Shown: in pieces, positions 2,785 through 13,210 of the stretch
How positions within the stretch are numbered: position 1 is the first letter of the stretch
Layout of the letters: every line of letters starts with the position of its first letter
Assembly: GCA_001604005.1 (NCBI GenBank)
Contig: LVAM01000024.1
Span: forward strand, 1 to 33,721
Direction: 5' to 3'
Length of the DNA: 33,721 bases
From: Clostridiales bacterium Firm_07
GTDB lineage: Bacteria > Bacillota > Clostridia > Oscillospirales > CAG-272
Notes under the pieces: generated by a model
What the model was told of the DNA's origin: nothing
Databases searched by the model: none
Seen by the model: only the letters and a program-made list of their open reading frames with translations
Position numbers and translations under genes: made by a program

Positions 2785-2861
2785 GGGCCATTAGCTCAGT
2801 TGGTCAGAGCCACCGGCTCATAACCGGTTGGTCCAAGGTTCGAGCCCTTGATGGCCCACCA
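2785..2861 (+). tRNA. tRNA with CAU anticodon (elongator Met or lysidine-type Ile2)
   Basis: 77 nt including an encoded CCA. All four stems pair: acceptor GGGCCAT/ATGGCCC, D stem GCTC/GAGC, anticodon stem ACCGG/CCGGT around loop CTCATAA, T stem CAAGG/CCTTG. The anticodon is CAU. From sequence alone I cannot separate elongator tRNA-Met from tRNA-Ile2, whose C34 is modified by TilS; the CTCATAA loop and acceptor resemble both in Clostridia. It is not the initiator, because position 1 can pair. Confidence 0.95.
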
Positions 2862-2898
2862 GAAAAGCGGGGTACGCAAACGCGTGCCCCGCTTTTCT
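2861..2898 (+). terminator. Terminator directly after the CAU tRNA
   Basis: A 17-bp stem with an AAAC loop begins at the final A of the CCA; its 3' arm ends in CTTTTCT, which supplies the U-rich tract inside the stem. Confidence 0.8.
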
Positions 2899-2903
2899 GC
2901 CAA

Positions 2904-3021
2904 AAGGGCTCGAAGCCGAGCGGCAGTGAATGACAGCCCGGTGGGCTGTCAGAGCCGCGACGGAGACCGAGCCGTTACGCCGCGCACGGCGTAGGTGAGA
3001 CCGAGCCCTTGATGGCCCACC
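2904..3021 (+). repeat. Structured element ending in a copy of the tRNA 3' end
   Basis: The last 20 bases (3002-3021) are an exact copy of tRNA positions 2841-2860, from the T loop to the CC of CCA. The element starts with AAGGGCTCG (2904-2912), the reverse complement of CGAGCCCTT in that copy, so the ends can pair. Inside are two perfect hairpins (GACAGCCC/GGGCTGTC and ACGCCG/CGGCGT) and GCGGC/GCCGC flanking the first. The motif GAGACCGAGCC occurs twice. There is no ORF with a ribosome binding site. I do not recognise it; it could be a structured RNA read through from the tRNA, or a tiny mobile or att-like remnant. Confidence 0.75.
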
Positions 3022-3085
3022 GCAAACCAAACTACCCGAACACGCCGTTTTCTTTCTCCCAAACGGAATGCCGGGAATTGTCATA

Positions 3086-3114
3086 AGCAGAGGTTGACCA
3101 CCTCTGCTTTTTCT
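3086..3114 (+). terminator. Second terminator downstream of the tRNA-linked element
   Basis: A 9-bp stem AGCAGAGGT/ACCTCTGCT with a 5-base loop is followed by TTTTTCT on the plus strand only. No plus-strand protein gene precedes it, so it fits a transcript that reads through the tRNA and the structured element. Confidence 0.7.
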
Positions 3115-3149
3115 ATTTTCCCCTATGGGGACATTAAACGGACCCTTGA

Positions 3150-3233
3150 CTATACAAGTGTCATTGCCGCAAGGATCATCGCCACACACAGGGCGAGAAC
3201 TTTGATACTCGATTTTGTCAGTTTCATTTTCAT
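3150..3233 (-). CDS. Tiny hydrophobic peptide ORF (27 residues), doubtful
   Basis: ATG with AAGGAAGG just upstream, a short basic start (KLTKSS), then a hydrophobic run ending VAMILAAMTLV before TAG. It looks like a bare signal peptide, a leader peptide or a type I toxin. A second 10-codon ORF with a GAAGGTGA site lies upstream at 3333-3301. I see no minus-strand promoter. It sits in AT-rich DNA unlike its surroundings. Alternatively it is a chance ORF. Confidence 0.35.
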   Translation of the reverse strand: MKMKLTKSSIKVLALCVAMILAAMTLV

Positions 3234-3353
3234 ACCTTCCTTTTCTTATTTTTTTGAATTTTGTTTTGAGTTTTTCAACTTTGCGAAAACGCTTCTTTTC
3301 TCAAAAAATCATCGCCCCGCAACGGGCTTTCATAAAAATCACCTTCTTTTTTT

Positions 3354-3911
3354 TCAAAATGGGGTTGACAAACAGATAAAATCTGTTATACTGAATATAG
3401 GCATACGGCAACAGCCGTCACTGCACCGGCCAGCGTAACACTGGCAGTGCCCCGAGTGGTTTAATCTCGGGGACTTTTTTTGTTTTTGGAACTTCTTCAT
3501 TTTTTGCAAATTTTTCGGAGCGGGCGACGAATGATATAAAACTTTATATCTTATCAGTTCTACATCTTCCGCCGAAACATCTTGATTTTTGTGATTTTCC
3601 CGAAACTTTCTACCCACACGGATCGGCTTGCCCTCATCATCCTCGATCTCCACAAAATGTTTAAAGTACGATCGCCCATCTTGATACTTTTTCAAACGCG
3701 TTCGATGCTTCCCGTTTCGAGAAGACAATGGCACAACCGCCAAATCGTTCCGCTTATTTGTTTCGATTACAACGACCGGGCGCTCTTTGGTTGAACCGGT
3801 TTTACTTCTACCCAAATAGTTATCCTGCGTGGAAAGCGTACGCCCAAGGGGAACGCTTCGCTTCTTCGGTTTCCGTTTCACGGAAGCCGATTTTTTCTTT
3901 TTGCCGAGCAC
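3354..3911 (-). CDS. PemK/MazF-like protein
   Basis: 185 residues from GTG at 3911, which is preceded by AGGGGGTG; an in-frame GTG at 3920 overlaps that site and is less likely. The first 20 residues are Lys/Arg-rich. Residues about 43-70 (KERPVVVIETN...LAVVPLSS) match the beta-strand pattern typical of PemK/MazF growth inhibitors (RPVVV...VVPLTS), followed by a YFKHFVEIEDDEGKP stretch. MazF-type proteins are ribosome-independent mRNA endoribonucleases, but I cannot confirm catalytic residues, and no antitoxin gene is adjacent. The last 35 codons are Cys-rich, unlike the rest, and lie opposite the candidate small RNA, so the natural C-terminus may have been lost or the overlap may be functional. 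The region is AT-richer than its surroundings. Confidence 0.55.
   Translation of the reverse strand: MLGKKKKSASVKRKPKKRSVPLGRTLSTQDNYLGRSKTGSTKERPVVVIETNKRNDLAVVPLSSRNGKHRTRLKKYQDGRSYFKHFVEIEDDEGKPIRVGRKFRENHKNQDVSAEDVELIRYKVLYHSSPAPKNLQKMKKFQKQKKSPRLNHSGHCQCYAGRCSDGCCRMPIFSITDFICLSTPF
3365..3392 (+). promoter_or_regulatory. Promoter with palindrome filling the spacer
   Basis: TTGACA (3365-3370), 16-bp spacer, TATACT (3387-3392). The spacer contains ACAGATAAAATCTGT (3372-3386), an inverted repeat with 6-bp arms placed where a repressor would block polymerase. It points into the small-RNA candidate that follows. Confidence 0.75.
3399..3481 (+). ncRNA. Candidate small RNA, about 83 nt
   Basis: A near-consensus promoter and a clean terminator (stem CCCCGAG/CTCGGGG at 3450-3472, then seven T) are only about 60 bp apart, with no ORF between them. 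The interval folds into small hairpins (CGGC-AACA-GCCG; CCAG/CTGG). It is antisense to the 3' end of the PemK-like ORF and lies upstream of the tiny hydrophobic ORF. The layout resembles antitoxin RNAs of type I systems, but the target is inference. Confidence 0.6.
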
Positions 3912-3931
3912 TGCCTTCACCCCCTTTCAAG

Positions 3932-3967
3932 AAAAAAATACAGCGTGGGAAGTTACACTCCCCACGC
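3932..3967 (-). terminator. Terminator between two minus-strand genes
   Basis: Stem GCGTGGG/CCCACGC with an 11-base loop; on the minus strand it is followed by TGTATTTTTTTC. It separates the unknown gene at 4573-4049 from the PemK-like gene. Confidence 0.65.
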
Positions 3968-4048
3968 CGTTCTAAAACGCCGATGGGTAGCGTTATAGAC
4001 TTGTCTCATTGTGCTCTTCGGCGCCCATCTCGCCGAATTGCACTCGCG

Positions 4049-4573
4049 TTACACCCGCTTTTTAAGCGCCGCAATCTGCAAAAAGCATTGCAGCATTTTC
4101 TTGTCGCTGTCGCGTTCGGGGCGCAGTTTGCAATCATACTGAATACCGAGATGATCCACGTGGCGCACAAGGTACGAGAAGCCCGAAGTCTTCTTCCCGG
4201 TGTTCGCGTCGGTCACCTCATACGGCACAAGCATAAGCGGTTTAACGTTCTCTTCGCCGAAGACCACGCCGAGCATTTTATACCCGCCGAGGTCAGGCGG
4301 CACGAGCGAAACGCGCTGTTCCACGCCACGAAGTTTACCTTGCACCGAATAGCGGAAGTACGATCCCTTGCCGTCCTTGCGCTGACGCTCTTCGCGGAGA
4401 ACATAAAGCCCGCTTTCCTCTGCCGCGTCTTCGGCCGCCTTTTCGGCGATCGCCGCCGCGTCATCTTGTCCCGCCGTGGGAAGCGCGTCGTATAACGCGA
4501 AATCGTCCGTCAGAGCCGCATTCTTCACCGGGGTGGTATCTTTGCCCACCACCTCTTTTTTCTTTTCTTCCAT
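4049..4573 (-). CDS. Protein of unknown function
   Basis: 174 residues; ATG with AAGGAGAAAAACGAAAG upstream. I do not recognise a family. Residues 1-60 are low in complexity, Lys/Glu- then Ala/Asp/Glu-rich and probably disordered. The rest (about 58-174) looks folded, with alternating hydrophobic strands (YFRYSVQGKL, VSLVPPDLGGYKMLGVVFG, PLMLVPYEV) and a C-terminal helix. No signal peptide, membrane segment or cysteine motif is visible. Its 5' leader contains the hairpin GCCCCTT/AAGGGGC. With the PemK-like gene and the small-RNA candidates it forms a block of accessory-looking genes next to a tRNA, which could be an old insertion. Confidence 0.6.
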   Translation of the reverse strand: MEEKKKEVVGKDTTPVKNAALTDDFALYDALPTAGQDDAAAIAEKAAEDAAEESGLYVLREERQRKDGKGSYFRYSVQGKLRGVEQRVSLVPPDLGGYKMLGVVFGEENVKPLMLVPYEVTDANTGKKTSGFSYLVRHVDHLGIQYDCKLRPERDSDKKMLQCFLQIAALKKRV

Positions 4574-4693
4574 CTTTCGTTTTTCTCCTTCCTTGCCCCT
4601 TCAAAAGGGGCGTTTTTTGTTTGCAATTTAAGTAAAGCGCAAATTGCAAAAAAATAAAAGGACATAAACGGTACAAAGCGGACATCTTTTTTG

Positions 4694-4727
4694 AAAAGTA
4701 AAAAGCCCGCAGATTACTCTGCGGGCT
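4694..4727 (-). terminator. Terminator of the antisense RNA
   Basis: 10-bp perfect stem AGCCCGCAGA/TCTGCGGGCT with a 4-base loop, followed on the minus strand by TTTTTACTTTTC. Confidence 0.8.
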
Positions 4728-4788
4728 CCCCCTTTCCTTTGGAGATCGGGCGTGCTATTTTTTGGGTGTCCGAAAGGAGGTGATTACC

Positions 4789-4863
4789 TTGTGCAAATTC
4801 CTCAATACATACGGCAATATGATTATTGATCTCATTTGCAAATTGGTGATTATTTTTCTCTGA
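4789..4863 (+). CDS. Candidate type I toxin peptide (24 residues)
   Basis: TTG start 8 bases after GGAGG. The ribosome binding site is GAAAGGAGGTGAT, a full-length match to the 16S rRNA 3' tail. The peptide is short, has a few polar residues first and ends in the hydrophobic run LICKLVIIFL, typical of small membrane-acting toxins. The competing GTG frame at 4791 gives a polar 12-residue peptide. It lies wholly inside the antisense RNA transcribed from the other strand. I see no clear plus-strand promoter, and the inverted repeat GGTGATTAT/ATAATCACC overlaps its end. Known type I toxins vary too much for a family name. Confidence 0.5.
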   Translation: MCKFLNTYGNMIIDLICKLVIIFL

Positions 4864-4890
4864 CGGATAATCACCGCCTTCCGTCTCCCC

Positions 4891-4919
4891 ATTATAGCAC
4901 ACCGCGCTCTCGTCGTCAA
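4891..4919 (-). promoter_or_regulatory. Promoter of the antisense RNA
   Basis: TTGACG (4919-4914), exactly 17 bp, TATAAT (4896-4891) on the minus strand. Confidence 0.8.
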
Positions 4920-4936
4920 GCCTCGCCGCGATATCG

Positions 4937-4965
4937 TTGATTTATCTCACAAATTGTGTTATACT
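4937..4965 (+). promoter_or_regulatory. Promoter of the DUF3784 gene with palindromic spacer
   Basis: TTGATT (4937-4942), 17 bp, TATACT (4960-4965). The spacer contains the perfect 11-base palindrome CACAAATTGTG (4948-4958), a possible operator. Confidence 0.7.
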
Positions 4966-4998
4966 ATTCTAAACAAGGTGAAAGGAGAGTGTAGAGCG

Positions 4999-5313
4999 AT
5001 GATTTTCGGGGTGATCTTGGAACTGGTCATAGGAACACTGTGCATCATAATGGGACTGCTTATTTGGATCAAAAAGCGCGTTTCGTTGCTGCATACTTAT
5101 CATTATAAAAACGTAAAGGAAAAAGATATTCCGGCATACGCGCGGCAAATGGGCATCGGTTTGATCGTGATCGGCGTCGGGATATGCGCCACGGGTCTGC
5201 TGAACCTCTTTTTCGATTCCGCTCTTGTGATTTTGGCGTTGATCCCGGGATTTGCCGTGGGGCTTGTCGTGATGCACAAAGCCCAAAAGAGATACAACGG
5301 CTCTTGGTTTTGA
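4999..5313 (+). CDS. Small membrane protein, DUF3784 family
   Basis: 104 residues from ATG 4999, preceded by AAAGGAGAGTGTAGAGCG; an earlier in-frame ATG lies in the promoter region and has no binding site. It has three hydrophobic segments (about residues 3-20, 50-67 and 71-88) separated by a polar stretch with KNVKEKDIPAYARQMG. This topology and central motif are typical of DUF3784, a family of small integral membrane proteins of Bacillota with no established function. Monocistronic, between its own promoter and a bidirectional terminator. Confidence 0.75.
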   Translation: MIFGVILELVIGTLCIIMGLLIWIKKRVSLLHTYHYKNVKEKDIPAYARQMGIGLIVIGVGICATGLLNLFFDSALVILALIPGFAVGLVVMHKAQKRYNGSWF

Positions 5314-5336
5314 TGCACTTGATCGCGCCATAAAAA

Positions 5337-5363
5337 AGAACCCGATCTTTCGGGTTCTTTTTC
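5337..5363. terminator. Bidirectional terminator between DUF3784 and the iron regulator
   Basis: Stem AGAACCCGA/TCGGGTTCT with loop TCTT; T-rich on the plus side (TTTTTCTT) and, on the minus side, TTTTTTA. It serves converging genes. Confidence 0.8.
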
Positions 5364-5371
5364 TTGTTGCT

Positions 5372-5758
5372 TTATTTGTCTTCCGCGTCGTTTGTGTGCG
5401 CGCGCAAATGCTCTTTGATGGCGGCAAAAGTCTTGTCACTGATATAGTGCTCCACGCGGCAGGCGTCTTCGCTTGCGGTTTCCTCGTCCACGCCCAGCCT
5501 CAACAGTATGCGGGTGAGCGTGGTGTGACGGTCATATATCTCTTCCGCCTGCGCTCTCCCCTCCTCCGTCAAGGTGATCGCGCCCGCCGAATTGACGGTG
5601 ATCAGCCCGCTCTCTTTCAAAAGCCCGATGGCGCGGCTCACCGAAGGACGTGAAAAGCCCATATATTCCCCGACGTCGACAGAACGTACCAAAGGATTTT
5701 TTTCGGACAAGATCAAAATCGTTTCCAGATACATTTCGCGTGATTCTTGTATTGCCAT
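5372..5758 (-). CDS. Iron-dependent transcriptional repressor, DtxR/MntR family
   Basis: 128 residues. The ATG at 5758 follows the promoter closely; a longer reading would start inside or before the -10 box. The N-terminal winged helix (about 1-65) contains VGEYMGFSRPSVSRAIGLLKESGLI. The dimerisation and metal-binding domain follows. The C-terminal SH3-like domain of DtxR is absent, so the size resembles MntR. The ligand positions are iron-like: Met9 in EMYLETI (Met10 in DtxR, Asp8 in manganese-sensing MntR), His78, and Cys100-Glu103-His104 in DACRVEH, the DtxR pattern. I infer an Fe(II)-dependent repressor acting on the divergent feo genes through the GTTAGC palindromes between them. Confidence 0.85.
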   Translation of the reverse strand: MAIQESREMYLETILILSEKNPLVRSVDVGEYMGFSRPSVSRAIGLLKESGLITVNSAGAITLTEEGRAQAEEIYDRHTTLTRILLRLGVDEETASEDACRVEHYISDKTFAAIKEHLRAHTNDAEDK

Positions 5759-5786
5759 ATCTGCGCCCTCGCTTTCCATTATATAT

Positions 5787-5815
5787 AGAATAGCACACTC
5801 CGGCGCGAAAATCAA
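5787..5815 (-). promoter_or_regulatory. Promoter of the iron regulator gene
   Basis: TTGATT (5815-5810), 17 bp, TATTCT (5792-5787) on the minus strand, about 30 bp before the chosen ATG. Confidence 0.65.
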
Positions 5816-5852
5816 GCGTTTTGATGATTTGGCATTCTGCACAAATACGATT

Positions 5853-5868
5853 GTTAGCAACGACTAAC
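5853..5868. promoter_or_regulatory. GTTAGC palindrome, site 1 (probable iron-regulator operator)
   Basis: GTTAGCAACGACTAAC, half-sites GTTAG/CTAAC around 6 bases, in the divergent region. The half-site matches the GTTAG core of the DtxR/IdeR box. Here the site does not overlap an obvious promoter. Confidence 0.7.
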
Positions 5869-5914
5869 TTCTTGTACAGTATCCACGAACTTTCAAAAAT
5901 GCGCTCGCTCTCTC

Positions 5915-5943
5915 TTGACAAGTTAGCCGCGGCTAACTATAAT
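5915..5943 (+). promoter_or_regulatory. feo promoter with GTTAGC operator (site 2) in the spacer
   Basis: TTGACA (5915-5920), 17 bp, TATAAT (5938-5943): a perfect consensus promoter. The spacer is almost entirely filled by the perfect palindrome GTTAGCCGCGGCTAAC (5922-5937). A bound DtxR-type dimer would block polymerase directly. Confidence 0.9.
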
Positions 5944-5985
5944 GACAGTGTAAACACCGAAACGGTCTTGAAAGGAGTTTTGTTT

Positions 5986-6201
5986 ATGATGCCCCTTGGA
6001 TTCTCCGAGATCGGAGAAGCGCAAATTGTACGACGGATCGGCGGCACGCCCGAAGTGAAAAAGCATTTGGAAAACCTTGGTTTTGTGGCAGGCAGCGAAG
6101 TGTCGATCATCAGCAAACTCGGCAGCAACGTCATCGTAAAGGTGAAAGAATCGCGCGTTGCCATCAGCGACGAACTGGCGCGAAAAATTATGGTCGGATA
6201 A
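5986..6201 (+). CDS. feoA: Ferrous iron transport protein A (first copy)
   Basis: 71 residues; ATG preceded by AAAGGAGTTTTGTTT (a second in-frame ATG follows at once). It is the SH3-like FeoA domain: RRIGGTPEVKKHLENLGFVAGSEVSIISKLGSNVIVKVKESRVAISDELARKIMV matches the family pattern (G...L..LGF..G..V.....G....V......ALs.e.A..I.V). FeoA is a small cytosolic partner of FeoB thought to modulate its activity. First gene of the operon, directly downstream of the iron-regulated promoter, followed by a second feoA after a short gap. Confidence 0.9.
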   Translation: MMPLGFSEIGEAQIVRRIGGTPEVKKHLENLGFVAGSEVSIISKLGSNVIVKVKESRVAISDELARKIMVG

Positions 6202-6211
6202 GGAGGAAATG

Positions 6212-6436
6212 ATGATGAAAACTCTGCGCGATATCCCCGTTGGGGGAAGTGCCACCGTGGTCAAACTGCACGGTGAGGGCGCGGTGAAACGCCGCATTAT
6301 GGATATGGGCATTACGAAAGGCACCGCCGTTTATGTCCGCAAAGTCGCCCCGCTCGGCGATCCGCTGGAAATCACGGTGCGCAACTATGAACTCTCTTTG
6401 CGCAAAGCCGACGCCGAAATGATCGAAGTGGAATAA
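6212..6436 (+). CDS. feoA: Ferrous iron transport protein A (second copy)
   Basis: 74 residues. Three consecutive ATG codons (6209, 6212, 6215) follow AAGGAGGA; 6212 or 6215 gives the best spacing. The FeoA domain is complete: TLRDIPVGGSATVVKLHGEGAVKRRIMDMGITKGTAVYVRKVAPLGDPLEITVRNYELSLRKADAEMIEV, including the MGI..G and the APLGDP-E turn of canonical FeoA. It is closer to typical FeoA than the first copy. Two feoA genes before feoB are common in Clostridia, and they may form a heteromeric complex with FeoB. Confidence 0.92.
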   Translation: MMKTLRDIPVGGSATVVKLHGEGAVKRRIMDMGITKGTAVYVRKVAPLGDPLEITVRNYELSLRKADAEMIEVE

Positions 6437-6469
6437 GGCGCGCCGATCTCCCTATTTTTTTAGACGGTT

Positions 6470-6485
6470 GTTAGCAAAAACTAAC
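6470..6485. promoter_or_regulatory. GTTAGC palindrome, site 3, just before feoB
   Basis: GTTAGCAAAAACTAAC, the same half-sites as sites 1 and 2, in the 78-bp gap between feoA2 and feoB and 30 bp upstream of the feoB start. It suggests separate iron control of feoB, or a roadblock inside the operon. No clear promoter is visible beside it. Confidence 0.75.
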
Positions 6486-6514
6486 AAAAGTACTGCGGTA
6501 CGGAAAGGAAAACT

Positions 6515-8920
6515 ATGAACATTCGCATCGCCCTTGCGGGCAACCCAAACTGCGGAAAAACCACGCTCTTTAACGCTCTGACCGGCTCCAATCAGTTTGT
6601 CGGCAACTGGCCGGGCGTGACGGTGGAGAAAAAAGAGGGCAAACTGAAAAAGCACGACGGCGTGATCGTGACCGACCTGCCCGGTATCTATTCCCTCTCC
6701 CCCTATACGCTTGAGGAAGTGGTGGCGCGCAATTATCTCATCGGCGAACGTCCGGACGCCATTCTCAATCTGGTGGACGGCACGAACTTGGAGCGCAACC
6801 TCTATCTCACCACGCAACTGACCGAACTCGGCATTCCCGTGGTCGTTGCCGTCAACATGATGGATATCGTGCGAAAGAGCGGCGACAAGATCAACACCAA
6901 GCGCCTCTCGGAAGAACTCGGCTGCCCCGTCATTGAGATCTCGGCGCTCAAAGGCACCGGACTTGCCGAAGCCACCGACGCCGCCATTGCGGCGGCAAAA
7001 GGCGGCAAAACCTTGCCGATGCACACGTTCTCCGGCCCCGTGGAACACGCGCTGGCGCACATTGAAGAGGCGGCACTGCACGATCTGCCGGAAGAACAAC
7101 AGCGCTGGTACGCGATCAAAGTTTTTGAGCGCGACGACAAGGCGCTTGCGTCTTTGAATATCCCCGCCGAAAAACTCGCGCACATTGAAGAAGACATCAA
7201 AGCCGCCGAAAAGGAACTGGACGACGACGCCGAGAGCATCATCACCAACGAGCGCTACGTCTACATCGCACAAATTCTGAAATCCTGCTATCAGAAAAAG
7301 AGCGCCGGAAAGCTCTCGACTTCGGACAAGATCGACCGCGTCGTGACGAATCGTTTTCTCGGTTTGCCGATCTTCGCCGTCATCATGTTCCTCGTTTACT
7401 GGATCTCTATGGTCGCCGTGGGCACGCCCGCGACCGACTGGGTGAACGACGGCGTTTTCGGGGACGGTTGGCATCTGCTCGGCATCGGTTCCAAAGGGTA
7501 TAACGAAGCCGCCGAAGAATACGGAGAGGCCGCCGCGATCCGCGATGGATTTGACGCTTATCTCGAAGCAAACGGCGTGGAACCCACCACTTCGTTTACA
7601 TACACCGTTGAAGATGAAGAAACTCTTGAAGTGACCGAAGAAGAGGCTACGCTCGCCGACTACGCGAACGCGCTGGTCACGCTCGGAAAATACGGCGACG
7701 AAGAGCCGGACCCCGCCGATTACGGCGTATGGGTGCCGAGTATTCCGGCACTGCTTGAAAATGGGCTTGACAAAGCGGGCGCCGCTCCCTGGCTCTCCGG
7801 GCTGATCCTTGACGGCATCGTGGCGGGCGTCGGCGCCGTGCTCGGCTTCGTTCCGCAAATGCTGGTGCTCTTCCTGCTTCTCGCGTTCCTTGAAGCCTGC
7901 GGCTATATGGCGCGTATCGCCTTTGTGCTGGATCGCGTCTTCCGCAAATTCGGGCTTTCGGGCAAATCCTTTATCCCGATGCTCATCGGCGTCGGGTGCG
8001 GCGTGCCCGGTATTATGGCAAGCCGTACCATTGAAAATGAGCGCGACCGCCGTATGACCATCATGACCACCACCTTTATCCCCTGCGGCGCGAAAGTTCC
8101 CTTTATCGCGATGATCGCGGGCGCCATTTTCGGCGGCTCCGCCTGGGTGGCGACTTCCGCCTATTTCATCGGTATGGCGGCGATCATCATCTCCGGCATT
8201 ATGCTGAAAAAGACCAAAATGTTCGCCGGCGATCCCGCGCCTTTCGTGATGGAACTCCCCGCCTATCACCTGCCCACCGTGCCGAACGTCCTGCGCTCGA
8301 TGTGGGAGCGCGGTTGGTCCTTCATCAAGAAGGCGGGCACGATCATTTTGCTCTCCACCATCGTGGTGTGGTTTACTTCCTATTTCGGATTCGCCGAGGA
8401 CGGGTTCCGTATGCTTGCCAAGGACGAACTTGACCGTTCGATCCTCGCCAAGATCGGCGGCGGCATCGCGTGGATCTTCGCGCCGCTCGGCTTTGGCACG
8501 TGGCAGGCGGCGGTCGCCTCGATCACGGGGCTTGTCGCCAAAGAAAATATCGTCGGCACGATGGGCATTCTCTACGGCGGCGGCGAGGGCACGGTCTGGC
8601 AGACGCTCGGCTCTGTCTTCAACGGCGTGACGGGCTATTCTTTCCTCGTTTTCAATCTTCTTTGCGCGCCCTGCTTTGCCGCCATCGGCGCGATCAAGCG
8701 CGAAATGAACAACGCCAAATGGACTTGGTTTGCCATCGGCTATCAATGCGGATTTGCTTATCTTGTGGCGCTCGCGATCAATCAGATCGGCGGCATCTTC
8801 ACGCACAATCTCAATGTTTTCGGCCTCATCGTTTCCCTCCTCGCTATCGGTGGCGCCGTCTATATGCTCTTCTTTAAGAAGTACGCCGAGGCAACGAAAC
8901 TGGAAAAGAAAATCGGCTGA
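6515..8920 (+). CDS. feoB: Ferrous iron transporter B
   Basis: 801 residues; ATG preceded by GGAAAGGAAAACT. The N-terminal G domain has G1 GNPNCGKT (9-16), DLPG (54-57) and NMMD (114-117), followed by the helical regulatory domain to about 270. The membrane part has the two FeoB gate motifs, GCGVPGIMASR and PCGAKVPF, and the CGYMAR segment. It imports Fe(II) in the inner membrane, coupled to nucleotide hydrolysis. Unusual: between the first membrane helix (about 285-303) and the next (about 430) there is an acidic insertion of roughly 100 residues (YGEAAAIRDGFDAYL..., EDEETLEVTEEEATL) that ordinary FeoB lacks. It should face outward. It follows two feoA genes and precedes the Cys-rich peptide. 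Confidence 0.95.
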   Translation: MNIRIALAGNPNCGKTTLFNALTGSNQFVGNWPGVTVEKKEGKLKKHDGVIVTDLPGIYSLSPYTLEEVVARNYLIGERPDAILNLVDGTNLERNLYLTTQLTELGIPVVVAVNMMDIVRKSGDKINTKRLSEELGCPVIEISALKGTGLAEATDAAIAAAKGGKTLPMHTFSGPVEHALAHIEEAALHDLPEEQQRWYAIKVFERDDKALASLNIPAEKLAHIEEDIKAAEKELDDDAESIITNERYVYIAQILKSCYQKKSAGKLSTSDKIDRVVTNRFLGLPIFAVIMFLVYWISMVAVGTPATDWVNDGVFGDGWHLLGIGSKGYNEAAEEYGEAAAIRDGFDAYLEANGVEPTTSFTYTVEDEETLEVTEEEATLADYANALVTLGKYGDEEPDPADYGVWVPSIPALLENGLDKAGAAPWLSGLILDGIVAGVGAVLGFVPQMLVLFLLLAFLEACGYMARIAFVLDRVFRKFGLSGKSFIPMLIGVGCGVPGIMASRTIENERDRRMTIMTTTFIPCGAKVPFIAMIAGAIFGGSAWVATSAYFIGMAAIIISGIMLKKTKMFAGDPAPFVMELPAYHLPTVPNVLRSMWERGWSFIKKAGTIILLSTIVVWFTSYFGFAEDGFRMLAKDELDRSILAKIGGGIAWIFAPLGFGTWQAAVASITGLVAKENIVGTMGILYGGGEGTVWQTLGSVFNGVTGYSFLVFNLLCAPCFAAIGAIKREMNNAKWTWFAIGYQCGFAYLVALAINQIGGIFTHNLNVFGLIVSLLAIGGAVYMLFFKKYAEATKLEKKIG

Positions 8921-8932
8921 AAGGAGTTTCTT

Positions 8933-9103
8933 ATGTGGGCGTGGATCATAGCCAACTTGGCGACTATTCTCATTTCTCTTTCGATCGTCGGTATCGTCGC
9001 GGGCATCGTCATTTCGATCGTGCGTGACAAGAAAGCGGGAAACTCCTCCTGCGGGTGCGGGTGCGAGCACTGCGCGATGAAAGATTCTTGCCACAAAAAA
9101 TAA
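8933..9103 (+). CDS. FeoB-associated Cys-rich membrane protein
   Basis: 56 residues; ATG with AAAGGAGTTTCTT upstream, 12 bases after the feoB stop. One N-terminal membrane helix (about 4-30) is followed by RDKK and a tail with five cysteines (40, 42, 44, 47, 53; CGCGCEHC then C). This matches the FeoB_associated family found after feoB in many anaerobes. The cysteines may bind iron on the cytosolic side; this is inference. It is the last gene of the feo operon, followed by a strong terminator. Confidence 0.9.
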   Translation: MWAWIIANLATILISLSIVGIVAGIVISIVRDKKAGNSSCGCGCEHCAMKDSCHKK

Positions 9104-9109
9104 CGCAAA

Positions 9110-9147
9110 GCCCGCCCGAGTTTTCTCGGGCGGGCGTTTTTTATTTT
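9110..9147. terminator. Bidirectional terminator after the feo operon
   Basis: 11-bp stem GCCCGCCCGAG/CTCGGGCGGGC with loop TTTT, then GTTTTTTATTTT on the plus strand. It also lies at the end of the converging glycosyltransferase gene. Confidence 0.85.
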
Positions 9148-10064
9148 GTCGGCGGGACAAAAAGACTGATTTTGAGGAGAAATTTGAAAATATACTTCGT
9201 GTGCTTTTCTTTCAGCATATATTTTTCGTATTGCCGTGCCACCGCGCGCATTTCGGCGATCTCCTTTTTGTATTTGCGGCGGGGGGCGATGGCGGCGTAC
9301 ATACCGCAGGAAAAACTGAGCCACGCGCGGATGGCGTCCCGCGCGGCGGGGTGCTCCTCGCGCTCGGCGTAATTTTCAAGCGCGCGCACGAAGGTCATTT
9401 CCCGCTCCGAAAACTTTTGGTGGATCTCCGAGCCGCCGCGCAACAGATAGTGATAAAGCGGATCGTTGATGAGCACGATCTTTCGGCACTCTTTGAGGTA
9501 TTGCAGGCAAAAGAGAAAATCCTCGCCCGTGCGCACACTCTCGTCAAAGCGCACGCGGCAAAGAAGATCGGTCTTATACATTTTATTCCACAGCATAAAG
9601 CGGGCGTTGAGGACGAGCGTCGGAAAAATATCATCGCCCTCCACCACGCACCGGCGGCTTTTCACGGGCGCTATGGGTGAAAACGGGTGCTTTTGCACCA
9701 AAAATTCGCACATGGAGAGGTCTGCGTCGCTTTCCACGAGCGCCGCGTGCAGTTTTTCAAGATAGCGCGGGAAAAGCACGTCGTCGCTGTCCACGAAAAC
9801 GGCGTATTTCCCTTTCGCGAAAGAAAGCAAGGCGTTGCGGGTCTTGCTGATATTTTTCTCGTTTTCTTTTCTGAAAAGGTGTATGCGCTCGTCGCTCGCG
9901 GCAAGGCGCGCGGCGACATTGTACGTGCCGTCCGTCGAGCCGTCGTCAAGCAAAACAAGATGAAAATTGCGGTAGGTCTGCCGCAAGATCGAGCGCACGG
10001 TGCGCTCGATATAGCGCTCGACGTTGTACATCGGCACGAGAACGCTGATAAGGTCTTCTCCCAT
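9141..10064 (-). CDS. Family 2 glycosyltransferase
   Basis: 307 residues. The GT-A fold is clear: ISVLVPMYNVERYIERTVRSIL at the start, LLDDGSTDGT (about 39-48) for nucleotide binding, and VDSDDVLFPRY (about 91-101) carrying the metal-binding DxD. No membrane segment is obvious, so it is probably a peripheral enzyme that adds a sugar to a surface polysaccharide or lipid; the substrate cannot be read. The start lies 4 bases after the stop of the upstream dehydrogenase gene without a strong site of its own, suggesting translational coupling. Confidence 0.88.
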   Translation of the reverse strand: MGEDLISVLVPMYNVERYIERTVRSILRQTYRNFHLVLLDDGSTDGTYNVAARLAASDERIHLFRKENEKNISKTRNALLSFAKGKYAVFVDSDDVLFPRYLEKLHAALVESDADLSMCEFLVQKHPFSPIAPVKSRRCVVEGDDIFPTLVLNARFMLWNKMYKTDLLCRVRFDESVRTGEDFLFCLQYLKECRKIVLINDPLYHYLLRGGSEIHQKFSEREMTFVRALENYAEREEHPAARDAIRAWLSFSCGMYAAIAPRRKYKKEIAEMRAVARQYEKYMLKEKHTKYIFKFLLKISLFVPPTK

Positions 10065-10068
10065 AGTG

Positions 10069-11016
10069 TTAATCTACGCGGGAGCGGCGCTCACCGCGAA
10101 AGAAGGCGCCGATATTTTCGATGATCTCGGCAAGGCAGCGTTCGCGCGCTTCCACGGCGCCCCACGCCATGTGGGGGGTGAGCAGGACGTTGTCTTTTCC
10201 CAAAAGGGCGTAAAAAGGGTGGTTTTCGGGCATCGGCTCGGTGGTATAGACGTCCGCGCCAAGGCCGCCGAGCCGCCCTTCTTTTACGGCTTTTGCCGCG
10301 GCGGCTTCGTCGATGACGGCGCCGCGCGCCACGTTCACGAGGATCGCGTCTTTTTTCATCAAAGCGAGTTCGCGCTCGCCGATGATGCCGCGCGTAGCGT
10401 CGGTGAGCGGCAGATGCACCGAGATCACGTCGGCGCGGCGGCAAAGTTCGTCAAGCGGCACGACATCAACGCCCGCCGCGGGCGTGCGTTTGACGGCAAG
10501 CACGTGACAGCCAAAGGCACGGGCGACCGCCGCCACCTGCGCGCCGATGCTGCCGTACCCCACGATGCCCCAAATTTTGCCGCGCAACTCTTTGTATGGC
10601 GGCACGAGGCAGTTTGCCACGCCGCCGCGTGTGTACGCGCCGCTCTCGACAAAGCGGGAATAGGCGGGCAACCGGCAGAAAAGCGCGAGCGCAAGCGTCA
10701 CCGTGATCTCGGCGACGCTGTCGGTGGAATATCCCGCCACGTTGCAGACGGCGACGCCATTTTGGCGGCAGAAATCCAAATCCACGTTATCATACCCCGT
10801 CGCCGCCACGCAGATAAGCGCGGGCAAGCGCGCGCCGGCAAGCGTGTCGGCGTTCATTTTGACTTTGTTGAGCACGACGACGTCGGCGCCGTCCACGCGG
10901 CGCGCCACCTCCCCAGCTCCGGTATTTTCAAAAACAGACACTTCGCCGCACGCAAAAAGCGGCGAAAGATCAAGATCCGCGCCGAGCGTTGCGGCGTCCA
11001 AAACCACGATCTTCAT
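10069..11016 (-). CDS. D-2-hydroxyacid dehydrogenase (glycerate dehydrogenase-like)
   Basis: 315 residues from ATG 11016, preceded by a GGAGGGGGGGAG site. The catalytic domain has VAATGYDNVDL and NVAGYSTDSVAE, the pattern of glycerate/hydroxypyruvate dehydrogenases. The Rossmann motif is GYGSIG (153-158). The catalytic triad is visible as Arg231 (VARGAVIDE), Glu260 (YTTEPMP) and His282 (TPHMAWG). It should interconvert a 2-keto acid such as hydroxypyruvate and the D-2-hydroxy acid with NAD(P)H. It lacks the ACT regulatory domain of long SerA proteins. It forms a two-gene operon with the glycosyltransferase; the link is not obvious. Confidence 0.88.
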   Translation of the reverse strand: MKIVVLDAATLGADLDLSPLFACGEVSVFENTGAGEVARRVDGADVVVLNKVKMNADTLAGARLPALICVAATGYDNVDLDFCRQNGVAVCNVAGYSTDSVAEITVTLALALFCRLPAYSRFVESGAYTRGGVANCLVPPYKELRGKIWGIVGYGSIGAQVAAVARAFGCHVLAVKRTPAAGVDVVPLDELCRRADVISVHLPLTDATRGIIGERELALMKKDAILVNVARGAVIDEAAAAKAVKEGRLGGLGADVYTTEPMPENHPFYALLGKDNVLLTPHMAWGAVEARERCLAEIIENIGAFFRGERRSRVD

Positions 11017-11047
11017 CGTTCTCCCCCCCTCCGCTTTCTTTTTGTCT

Positions 11048-11076
11048 ATTATACCCCACTTTGCCGCAAATTTCAA
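11048..11076 (-). promoter_or_regulatory. Promoter of the dehydrogenase-glycosyltransferase operon
   Basis: TTGAAA (11076-11071), 17 bp, TATAAT (11053-11048) on the minus strand. The -35 lies inside the 3' arm of a hairpin (AAGCGCGG/CCGCGCTT, 11075-11103) that follows the MATE gene and may end it. Confidence 0.8.
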
Positions 11077-11112
11077 GCGCGGGCGCAAAATGCGTCCGCG
11101 CTTTTCTGTTTT

Positions 11113-12474
11113 TCACGCATTGCCCGCCTCTTTATGCAAGCGGGGCTTGTCAATCTGCAAAGTCTTGGCGAGTATCAGCGTCAGAGTGCCGCTTGAAAGC
11201 GCCGCCGCGTTCGCCATCAGCCACACGCCGTCAAGCGCCAAAAAGGCAGTCAGGATAAAGAGAAAGGCAACGGGAAAGACGAGCGTGCCGAAAAGCGAAA
11301 CGACGAGCGAGCGCACGGGGCGTTCGAGCGCCGTAAAGAAGGAAGAAAAACACATATCAATCCACCCGACGATATAGGAAAATGAAAAAATCTTGATGGC
11401 GCGAACGCTCACGCCGAGGAGTTCCGTGTCGTCCGGTCTGATAAAGGCCGTCGCAACGTGCGGACCGGCAAACAGCATAAAGAGGAATGCGGCAAATGAA
11501 GTCGCGGCGGCGGCGGCGACTACCCTTTTGAAGATTGCCTTCATTCTTTCCCGCAATCCGGCCCCGTAGCAATAACTGATCGCGGGTTGGAGCGCGTCGC
11601 AGATACCGAAATTGAGCATTCCCATAATGCTGTCCACGTACATCACGATCGAAAACGCCGCCACGGCGGTCGTGCCGCCGTATTTGAGGAGAAACAAATT
11701 CATAACGACGCTCATCACCGAAACAGATACGGTGCTGAAAAACTCGCTGAACCCGTTGGCGACAAGCCGGAAAAAGCGGGAAATCGGAACGCCTTTGCGC
11801 GTATAATAAACGTCCATACGCCGCCCGAGAAACATTGAAAACGTCACGACCGAACCGAGCACGATCGAGGCGCAACTTGCCACGGCTGCCGCCCAAACGC
11901 CCTGACGAAAGACTGCGATCAGCAAAAAATCGAGGATAACGTTCAGTATTTGTGTAACGACGCCAATCGTCATACTGCGCCTTTCTTTTCCGCACACGCG
12001 CAAAAAGTTGTCTGTGGCGAAATAGATCGGCACGAGAGGGCCGAACAAAGCGAAGATTTTGAGATATTCCACGGAGCAGTCGATTGCCTCGGCAGTGGCG
12101 CCCCGCGCGATCAAAAGGACGAAGGGTCTTGCGAGAAAAAAGCCGAGCGCGCTGACGACGAGTGAGAAAGCGAAAATAAACTTAACCGAAAACGAAAACA
12201 CGCGCGACGCTTCTTCCCTCTCCCCTTTTCCAAGCAAGATCGACATATTGACCGACGCGCCCGTGGCGATCATATTGGAGATCGCCGCAACGATCATCAA
12301 GATCGGCATAATGAAATTGATCGCCGCCAGGGCGTCCTCGCCGAGATACCTGCCGACGAAAACGCCGTCGACCACGGAGTACAGCGCGCCGAAAACCGAG
12401 GTAACGACCGCAGGAACGGCGCACTTGAAAAAGAGTTTCGTGGGCGGCAGTTTTGCAAACTGTTCGGAATCCAT
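11113..12474 (-). CDS. MATE family efflux transporter
   Basis: 453 residues from ATG 12474, preceded by GGAGGGCTT; a longer reading runs back into the leader terminator. About 12 hydrophobic segments in two halves. The N-terminal signature is typical: KLFFKCAVPAVVTSVFGALYSVVDGVFVGRYLGEDALAAINFIMPI, with the related A-x-x-F-x-x-Y-x-D pattern in the second half. MATE proteins export cationic drugs or metabolites using Na+ or H+; the substrate is not readable. Expression appears to be controlled by transcription termination in its structured leader, which suggests that the exported compound or a related metabolite is sensed by RNA. Confidence 0.9.
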   Translation of the reverse strand: MDSEQFAKLPPTKLFFKCAVPAVVTSVFGALYSVVDGVFVGRYLGEDALAAINFIMPILMIVAAISNMIATGASVNMSILLGKGEREEASRVFSFSVKFIFAFSLVVSALGFFLARPFVLLIARGATAEAIDCSVEYLKIFALFGPLVPIYFATDNFLRVCGKERRSMTIGVVTQILNVILDFLLIAVFRQGVWAAAVASCASIVLGSVVTFSMFLGRRMDVYYTRKGVPISRFFRLVANGFSEFFSTVSVSVMSVVMNLFLLKYGGTTAVAAFSIVMYVDSIMGMLNFGICDALQPAISYCYGAGLRERMKAIFKRVVAAAAATSFAAFLFMLFAGPHVATAFIRPDDTELLGVSVRAIKIFSFSYIVGWIDMCFSSFFTALERPVRSLVVSLFGTLVFPVAFLFILTAFLALDGVWLMANAAALSSGTLTLILAKTLQIDKPRLHKEAGNA

Positions 12475-12483
12475 AAGCCCTCC

Positions 12484-12613
12484 AAAAAAACAACTCGGTC
12501 TCCACGCAACGACGATTGCGTGAAAACCGAGCGCACTCGGCACCTTATCCGACAGGCGGCCGCGATCAGATCGCTCCCCAGCACTACGGTGCTCTGTCCT
12601 CCGGTGACCATTT
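12484..12613 (-). promoter_or_regulatory. Riboswitch-like leader with terminator upstream of the MATE gene
   Basis: The transcript begins about 12613. First comes a compact fold (12613-12541): GACAG/CTGTC encloses the hairpin AGCAC-CGTA-GTGCT, the block GGGGAGCGAT and CCGCCTG. Then comes an intrinsic terminator (12531-12484): CTCGGT and CACGCAA arms pairing with TTGCGTG and ACCGAG, then TTGTTTTTTT. The 5' arm CTCGG can instead pair with CCGAG just upstream, an antiterminator-like alternative. The ribosome binding site follows immediately. The order hairpin, GGGGAGCG, CCGCCTG recalls the ZTP (pfl) riboswitch, but the GGCGA and CCTGGGC parts of that consensus do not match, so I leave the class open. 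Confidence 0.65.
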
Positions 12614-12619
12614 TTTTAC

Positions 12620-12648
12620 AGTATATACCTTTTTCGCCGATTTGTCAA
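12620..12648 (-). promoter_or_regulatory. Promoter of the MATE leader
   Basis: TTGACA (12648-12643), 17 bp, TATACT (12625-12620) on the minus strand. Transcription would begin just before the structured leader. Confidence 0.85.
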
Positions 12649-12674
12649 TAGGCGGCGCCGCTCTCCCACGAAAT

Positions 12675-12705
12675 GAAAAGCGCGGGCGCCCCTGTGGGCG
12701 CCCGC
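12675..12705 (-). terminator. Terminator after the outermost tRNA-Leu 3' copy
   Basis: 10-bp stem GCGGGCGCCC/GGGCGCCCGC with loop of 4, then GCTTTTC on the minus strand. Confidence 0.75.
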
Positions 12706-12859
12706 ATTTTTTGGTGCCGGAAGCGGGGGTCTGAACCACACGCAAGCGCGGCGCGCTTGCTCACCGAGTTTGCCCTGCGGGCAAACTCACGCGGCCACCG
12801 AAAACAGCAAAATTTCTTTCTCTTTCTTCGCCGCGGCGGGTTCTCCCCGTCGCGTCCGC

Positions 12860-12891
12860 AAAAAAGGCGGGCGCCCCTGTGGGCGCCCGCC
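12860..12891 (-). terminator. Terminator between the two 185-bp units
   Basis: 11-bp stem GGCGGGCGCCC/GGGCGCCCGCC, then TTTTTT on the minus strand; identical to the one after the genuine tRNA. Confidence 0.85.
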
Positions 12892-13044
12892 TTTTTTGGT
12901 GCCGGAAGCGGGGGTCTGAACCACACGCAAGCGCGGCGCGCTTGCTCACCGAGTTTGCCCTGCGGGCAAACTCACGCGGCCACCGAAAATAGCAAAATTT
13001 CTTTCTCTTTCTTCGCCGCGGCGGGTTCTCCCCGTCGCGTCCGC

Positions 13045-13076
13045 AAAAAAGGCGGGCGCCCCTGTGGGCGCCCGCC
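13045..13076 (-). terminator. Terminator of tRNA-Leu
   Basis: 11-bp stem GGCGGGCGCCC/GGGCGCCCGCC with loop of 4, then TTTTTT, starting 5 bases after the CCA of the tRNA. Confidence 0.88.
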
Positions 13077-13081
13077 TTTTT

Positions 13082-13168
13082 TGGTGCCGGAAGCGGGGGT
13101 CGAACCCGCACGGTATCGCTACCACGGGATTTTGAGTCCCGCACGTCTGCCAATTCCATCATTCCGGC
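13082..13168 (-). tRNA. tRNA-Leu (CAA)
   Basis: 87 nt with encoded CCA. The acceptor stem GCCGGAA/TTCCGGC and T stem GCGGG/CCCGC pair. The anticodon loop CTCAAAA gives anticodon CAA (codon UUG). The long variable arm (about 14 nt after the anticodon stem) is as expected for class II tRNA-Leu. Confidence 0.95.
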
Positions 13169-13181
13169 AAGCAACGCGGTT

Positions 13182-13210
13182 ATTATAGCATACCTTGCGC
13201 GAAAAATCAA
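13182..13210 (-). promoter_or_regulatory. Promoter of tRNA-Leu
   Basis: TTGATT (13210-13205), 17 bp, TATAAT (13187-13182) on the minus strand, 14 bases before the mature tRNA. Confidence 0.8.

Follow-up and report, generated by a model that had tools for sequence, protein, structure and literature searches.

RtT-like repeat units carrying copies of tRNA 3′ ends behind tRNA-Met and tRNA-Leu in Clostridiales bacterium Firm_07

The window analyzed here, a 33,721-nucleotide stretch of contig LVAM01000024.1 from Clostridiales bacterium Firm_07 (assembly GCA_001604005.1), contained only two tRNA genes that could be found, tRNA-Met(CAT) and tRNA-Leu(CAA). Behind each of them lay short, hairpin-rich repeat units ending in a copy of the 3′ end (tail) of that same tRNA. 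Both loci probably belong to a family of tRNA-tail repeat arrays, similar to the rtT repeats of Escherichia coli, that would spread by recombination and keep a folded form.

Cognate tail copies in the genus

At both loci, the tail copy was located about 140–160 nt from the CCA end and was scored highest by the cognate tRNA, which outscored all 37 others of the genome. The assignment of each 3′ copy to its adjacent tRNA in the first-pass annotation therefore held in the window, and it also held in the wider census given below. The genome of Firm_07 gave 39 tRNA matches, and 38 distinct tRNA genes were present in the fetched loci. Eight tRNAs (Ala-GGC, Cys, Gln-CTG, His, Leu-TAG, Leu-CAA, Met and Tyr) had a strong direct copy, defined by an alignment score of 30 or more, and in each case the cognate tRNA was the best of the 38 queries.

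The genus census covered this genome and those of three more species. From 149 gene records, 44 were excluded for lying less than 90 nt from the next tRNA or a contig end, leaving 105 testable genes. A cognate direct copy was found at 29 of these genes and a cognate inverted copy directly behind the terminator at 21; 40 genes carried one or the other and 10 carried both, covering 22 of 33 anticodon types. When regions were paired with the wrong tail as a control, direct copies were seen in 0 of 1050 pairs and inverted copies in 5 of 1050. In a larger set that was partly selected by similarity, 50 of 197 records had a cognate direct copy, compared with 1 of 800 mismatched pairs. Two transfer-messenger RNA (tmRNA) genes also carried tail-copy units. 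The tail copies are thus a real, cognate class of repeats, present in each of the four surveyed genus genomes, and the earlier idea of a lineage-wide feature tied to tRNA tails was confirmed to this extent.

Another variant of the same gene was available for comparison for 45 of 50 units. The own-species gene fitted the copy best in 35 of these 45, a count that is somewhat generous as a few of the compared variants were truncated tRNA calls or other tRNA-Met genes; there was a tie in 6, and another variant fitted better in 4.

Unit architecture and shared cores

The units followed a common plan: gene tail, terminator hairpin, left arm, inner hairpins, right arm and, often, the identical terminator again. 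The right arm is a direct tail copy running from about the T loop to CCA, and the left arm repeats the tail, imperfectly, as its reverse complement. Inverted left arms were present at 60 records and, together with the tail and terminator, form one long palindrome. This inverted copy at the left end of the unit goes beyond the earlier description; it was weak at the Met and Leu loci and clear elsewhere. Only the palindrome was present at tRNA-Lys of two species (genomes G265 and G297; loci L168 and L171), so the arrays look like the form palindrome (core palindrome)n. Units were about 90–300 bp long and stood singly or in tandem, with tandem periods of about 110–200 bp; tandem arrays were found at Leu-CAA (in the window), Tyr, Leu-TAG and Lys.

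Two changes recurred at unrelated genes: TCGAACC to GAGAACC in the left arm, and an A or T inserted between T-loop positions 56 and 57 in the copy. Of 50 unit left regions, 24 had a GAGAA-type motif, which leaves about half of the units without it; the motif was rarer in other regions (14 of 158) and in far regions (22 of 190). The inserted T-loop base was present in 13 of 50 units, and most tRNA-Lys units, among others, kept a plain T loop. Together, the GAGAACC change and the inserted base would give the paired arms a defined internal loop on the sense strand.

The features of the tRNA-Met(CAT) locus are as follows:

2746–2774, + strand: sigma-70-like promoter of tRNA-Met, by consensus match only (11 of 12 consensus positions matched)
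2785–2861, + strand: tRNA-Met(CAT), called by ARAGORN and by the Rfam tRNA model (68.1 bits)
2860–2899, + strand: terminator-like hairpin starting at the CCA end, an 18-nt inverted repeat with 94% complementarity (arms 2860–2877 and 2882–2899)
2904–2914, + strand: left arm, an inverted copy of part of the tRNA T arm (AAGGGCTCGAA), from alignment to the cognate reverse complement
2918–2958, + strand: core hairpin with a tandem-GA internal loop (GAGCGGC-AGT-GA...GA-GCCGC), from the fold and the shared first 15 nt
2976–2993, + strand: second hairpin of the unit, from the fold
3002–3021, + strand: direct copy of the tRNA-Met 3′ end (1 mismatch in 20)

The left arm of this unit had a local-alignment score of 22 and ranked second among 38 tRNAs, which is weak, and it paired with the direct copy in the fold. 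The first 15 nt of the core hairpin, whose tandem-GA loop we take to resemble a kink-turn, recurred in units of genome G064 (at tRNA-Trp and tRNA-Leu) and in a truncated tRNA-Trp unit of G280. This 15-mer was present in 3 of 295 family genomes including that of Firm_07, G064 and G280 being of other genera. The next terminator-like site (3085–3109) lay about 60 nt past the tail copy and did not repeat the first hairpin.

The features of the tRNA-Leu(CAA) locus, in the direction of transcription, are as follows:

13182–13210, − strand: sigma-70-like promoter of tRNA-Leu, by consensus match only (10 of 12 consensus positions matched)
13082–13168, − strand: tRNA-Leu(CAA), called by ARAGORN and by the Rfam tRNA model
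13044–13083, − strand: terminator hairpin 1, a perfect 18-nt inverted repeat
13021–13043, − strand: left arm of unit 1, an inverted tail copy with GAGAACC replacing TCGAACC, from alignment
12951–12973, − strand: hairpin A of unit 1 (GAGTTTGCCC/GGGCAAACTC), from inverted repeat and fold
12927–12945, − strand: hairpin B of unit 1 (GCAAGCGC/GCGCTTGC), from inverted repeat and fold
12897–12922, − strand: direct copy 1 of the tRNA-Leu tail, containing a perfect 20-nt copy, its T loop having one additional base (GGTTC-A-GA)
12859–12898, − strand: terminator hairpin 2, an inverted repeat
12712–12896, − strand: unit 2, a tandem copy of unit 1 with a 185-bp period and 98% identity
12712–12737, − strand: direct copy 2 of the tRNA-Leu tail, containing a perfect 20-nt copy
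12676–12711, − strand: terminator hairpin 3, an inverted repeat that closes the array

Counted as repeats, the Leu array consisted of 12676–12860 and 12861–13045 in tandem, with three terminator hairpins. Its left arm was again weak (alignment score 20, rank 4 of 38 tRNAs). Hairpin types A and B were found in identical order 3′ of tRNA-Arg(CCG) in the same genome. A simple terminator scan flagged neither of the hairpins directly 3′ of CCA at the Met and Leu loci; the Leu hairpin was probably missed because its T run sits within the stem.

The layout described earlier for both tRNAs was recovered in outline, with a terminator-like hairpin, a hairpin-rich unit and a cognate tail copy at each, except that Leu has two units and not one. 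The second terminator placed beyond each copy was correct for Leu, where the hairpin is repeated, but not for Met, where the next site is no repeat of the first. The elements had also been called free of open reading frames (ORFs). No gene was recognized in the window units, although long ORFs in the raw list do cross both elements, with nothing found to mark them as genes. Such arrays create false ORFs and partial tRNA matches, a point to be watched in annotation. When the window units were scanned against Rfam at the gathering score, nothing but tRNA was found, and a lax Rfam scan of six loci returned tRNAs plus matches far below the cut-off. A T-box or other leader RNA was considered and set aside, as it had no support from Rfam.

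Some inner parts of the units (cores) were shared between different tRNA genes. Core type A was defined from an alignment of 12 units, 11 at tRNA-Lys (seven species) and 1 at tRNA-Ser(GGA). The core A model matched 12 of 21 genus genomes, with 40 matches listed, and 9 of 295 family genomes, 3 of these being in one other genus. From the 40 listed matches, 30 were fetched, and 24 of them had an upstream gene on the same strand (22 tRNA and 2 tmRNA). No tRNA or tmRNA gene was found for the remaining 6 of the 30, among which were displaced and contig-end cases. The host genes comprised tmRNA, in two cases, and tRNAs of the types Lys-TTT, Lys-CTT, Ser-GGA, Thr-GGT, Ala-GGC and His. Every tRNA type other than Lys-CTT, and both tmRNA genes, had a scored cognate direct copy at core A loci; at the Lys-CTT core A loci of the genus, the direct copy was below the threshold. 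The tRNA-Lys array of G299 had different cores between identical ends. Of the three units in the tRNA-Met array of G183, one had GAGAACC and a P2 stretch otherwise seen at tRNA-Val (by eye). The unit types at one tRNA varied between species. A pseudoknot (CCGAT/ATCGG) that was noted by eye in two of the Lys units was rejected, since its partner does not follow in the 12-unit alignment.

Fold, likeness to rtT and competing explanations

Folding was carried out for 49 of 50 units, the one left out having its end beyond 300 nt. Compared with dinucleotide shuffles, the units had a mean z of −3.5, and 35 of 49 were below −2. In core A, 6 of 28 pairs covaried, with 18 cells changed on both sides and pairing kept, in an alignment that includes near-identical tandem units and from which the structure itself was predicted. 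The cell count was matched by 0 of 500 shuffles and the pair count by 1 of 500, and slid controls gave at most 1 cell. The covariation supports a predicted conserved fold in core A, and not many independent events. The prospect raised earlier that only these two tRNAs would show the feature and that the elements would share no covarying structure did not agree with 40 positive genes among the 105 testable ones and with the covarying helices of core A.

In E. coli MG1655, one tail copy was found behind tyrT and three behind tyrV, 175–178 bp apart. The left arm of the E. coli unit, GGGGAAGGAT (GGGGAAGGGT behind tyrT), is complementary to the copy and is followed by GAGAA where the T-loop complement would read TCGAA. 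These four units were scored at 132.9–137.5 bits by the Rfam model RtT (RF00391). The rtT (RttR) RNA of tyrT and tyrV thus has in common with the present units the tandem non-coding units behind a tRNA, the tail copy of about 20 nt from the T loop to CCA, the complementary left arm followed by GAGAA, the inner hairpins, a break located near the T loop and the change of TC to GA. Tandem tail copies were seen in the present units as well, though some stand singly, and the left arm with GAGAA(CC) was seen in the 60 inverted-arm records and the 24 of 50 units with the motif. A tandem GA is noted in the rtT fold in PMC8250186. The E. coli repeats differ in occurring only at tRNA-Tyr, as examined here, and in that their fold shows no evident terminator hairpin where the unit starts, whereas the present arrays occur at many tRNAs and tmRNA and exchange their cores. 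Judged from sequence and predicted fold, the present units are built like rtT, and we do not file them as members of RF00391.

To our knowledge, the E. coli tyrT repeats have been treated as a lone oddity. Among the titles and opening parts of abstracts listed from the open-licence PMC literature, none dealt with such arrays at many tRNAs. The plan could be matched to a single unusual E. coli tRNA operon; here it was present at many tRNAs and tmRNA, with a patchy occurrence in further families of the order.

Several results weigh against the reading of these loci as RtT-like arrays with a conserved fold, in addition to the composition of the core A alignment. Neither copy was present at 65 of the 105 testable genes, and the occurrence in the wider family was patchy. 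The resemblance to rtT is one of layout and of a short motif; the extra T-loop base is absent from E. coli rtT, and none of the 21 genus genomes reached the 45-bit cut-off of the RF00391 model (best 18.2), while the E. coli control was positive. A sense-RNA signature was looked for in two strand-asymmetry tests, both negative. The sense fold was the more stable in 30 units and the antisense fold in 19 (p 0.18), or 14 to 9 by gene type (p 0.64), and control regions gave 83 to 56 (p 0.069); in comparison, the sense strand was preferred 166 to 50 in tRNAs and 132 to 73 in terminators. Left-arm substitutions showed no wobble asymmetry (25 to 21, p 0.66). About equal strand stability and the absence of wobble asymmetry suggest that selection, or repair templated by hairpins, may keep the fold at the level of DNA.

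In the RtT-like array reading, slippage, or unequal recombination from one direct copy to another, would multiply the units, and recombination or conversion involving the adjacent gene would keep their ends cognate. Cores would move among loci via the short T-loop sequence common to tRNAs. The folded form might be kept for a use when transcription reads past the terminator, giving a structured, tail-mimicking RNA like rtT; this is the weakest step. With such tails at 40 of 105 genes, many natural replicates are available for tracking the ends, the movement of cores and selection on the fold. A wider proposal, which we put forward only tentatively, is that RtT-type repeats are old, cross-phylum folded cassettes on tRNA and tmRNA tails, that their arms are continually rewritten to the host gene, and that the unit RNA, arising by read-through or processing, imitates the tRNA tail and acts gene by gene on tRNA maturation or turnover.

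A neutral origin is the strongest competitor and seems unlikely to us. Here, template switching at the terminator hairpin would invert the tail, slippage would duplicate the product and hairpin-templated repair would keep the stems, without any function. The results of both strand tests are as expected from such a process, and so are the single palindrome made by tail, terminator and inverted arm, the palindrome-only state at tRNA-Lys of G265 and G297, and the different unit types of different species at one tRNA. In core A, moreover, G-C is replaced by A-U, and G-U is hardly seen, at the variable pairs in helix 3 and at most of those in helix 4. However, the GAGAACC change and the extra T-loop base recur at unrelated tRNAs, the latter also in other families, GAGAA is also present in E. 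coli, and core A is conserved over species and loci.

Integrative-element scars or decoys, in which each copy would be the attR of a tRNA-targeting integrase and the intervening DNA a remnant, are an improbable source. Many attachment (att) sites start near the tRNA T loop, and the present copies begin there too, so that the direct tail repeat is common to these units and to tRNA-targeting integrative elements bounded by attL and attR. Genes were located between units at two loci and between tRNA-Met and the array at a third, and a recombinase-like ORF end adjoined a unit in locus L213 (by eye). In PMC9897764, tRNA gene fragments left by tRNA-targeting insertions are described. The units, however, are about 90–300 bp long and often tandem with regular periods, they are cognate at 22 of 33 anticodon types, and they have shared cores and an inverted arm that att sites do not need. 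No gene was recognized in the units of the window and no integrase-bearing remnant lay between copies there, genes being present in only a few displaced arrays. The recurrence of cores at different tRNAs, together with the cognate ends, makes unrelated att scars an unlikely source.

The three loci with lodged genes, which suggest that arrays may also serve as insertion points, were as follows. Between two tRNA-Ser(GGA) units of G140 (L257, 1268–3835), a single-chain restriction-methylase fusion (HSDR_N, N6_Mtase, Methylase_S) was encoded. An XRE helix-turn-helix/TPR gene was located between units of the tRNA-Trp array of G064 (L156, 930–2051). The gene between tRNA-Met and the array in G183 (L258) had a DUF4234-like match below the family cut-off.

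Mobile DNA cassettes, for which a transposase would act on hairpins in single-stranded form, as in repetitive extragenic palindromic (REP) sequences with their REP-associated tyrosine transposase (RAYT) or in an attC-like manner, are very improbable: the units are indeed short, modular, repeated and hairpin-based like REP sequences and bacterial interspersed mosaic elements (BIMEs), rtT-like elements are reported inside BIMEs in Enterobacteria in PMC2965389, and a full-length Y1 transposase was present in G000, but the ends of the present units are tRNA-specific and not fixed, the units sit behind tRNAs (24 of 30 fetched core A matches lay behind tRNA or tmRNA genes), and a RAYT/IS200 transposase is not required because G097 (97% complete) and G218 (93% complete) have units and no match to Y1 (IS200/RAYT-type). 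From the earlier suggestion of a genetic element that targets tRNA ends, the tie to those ends was borne out, and an element with a partner of its own would be hypothetical. Tyrosine recombinases were found in 21 of 21 genus genomes, which made the proposed integrase check uninformative; besides these and Y1, reverse transcriptase/retron and RtcB partners were not searched for.

Distribution beyond the genus and neighboring features

A search for the Leu locus in 98 family genomes, with 30 loci fetched, gave a strong direct copy at 3 (L039, L046 and L048, the locus of Firm_07 included) and a weak or partial one at about 3 more (L045, L052 and L067). When 295 genomes of the order were searched with a sequence pattern, 14 of them contributed 18 rows, while the reversed control gave 7 matches in 5 genomes. 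Three of the rows came from the window genome, 10 loci were examined and 5 were left unexamined. Among the 10 loci examined, 7 had genuine tail copies and 3 had no tRNA nearby. The genuine copies were found in another genus of the family (G017, tRNA-Gly), in one genus of a second family (tRNA-Gln and tRNA-Gly, one at a contig start) and in a genus of a third family, where the tRNA-Gln copy was of a minimal form with hardly any core. The extra T-loop base was also seen in other families of the order.

Repeats of other appearance were observed behind tRNA genes in the same searches. A different hairpin repeat, with hairpins joined by ATATCAT or a similar sequence, was located behind tRNA terminators in several family genomes (3′ of tRNA-Leu(CAA) in L066, and also in L047, L055, L205 and L258). 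At tRNA-Glu(TTC) of G135 (L233), tandem tail copies about 100 bp apart bounded a different-looking unit with no clear terminator.

Elsewhere in the window, the region 3360–3480 (+ strand) had no clear gene. By eye it contained a stretch resembling a promoter, along with hairpins and, followed through as CCCCGAG/CTCGGGG, a hairpin that has a T run; its Rfam matches were weak and below the cut-off. Fourteen loci around named relatives of the MATE transporter gene that adjoins tRNA-Leu were also inspected, and tRNA-Ser was called at one of them and tRNA-Leu at none. In the stretch 12500–12650 (− strand) of the window, a promoter-like TTGACA/TATACT pair (12648–12620) was located ahead of a hairpin-rich leader that precedes this MATE gene, and Rfam families gave no match to it even at E up to 1.

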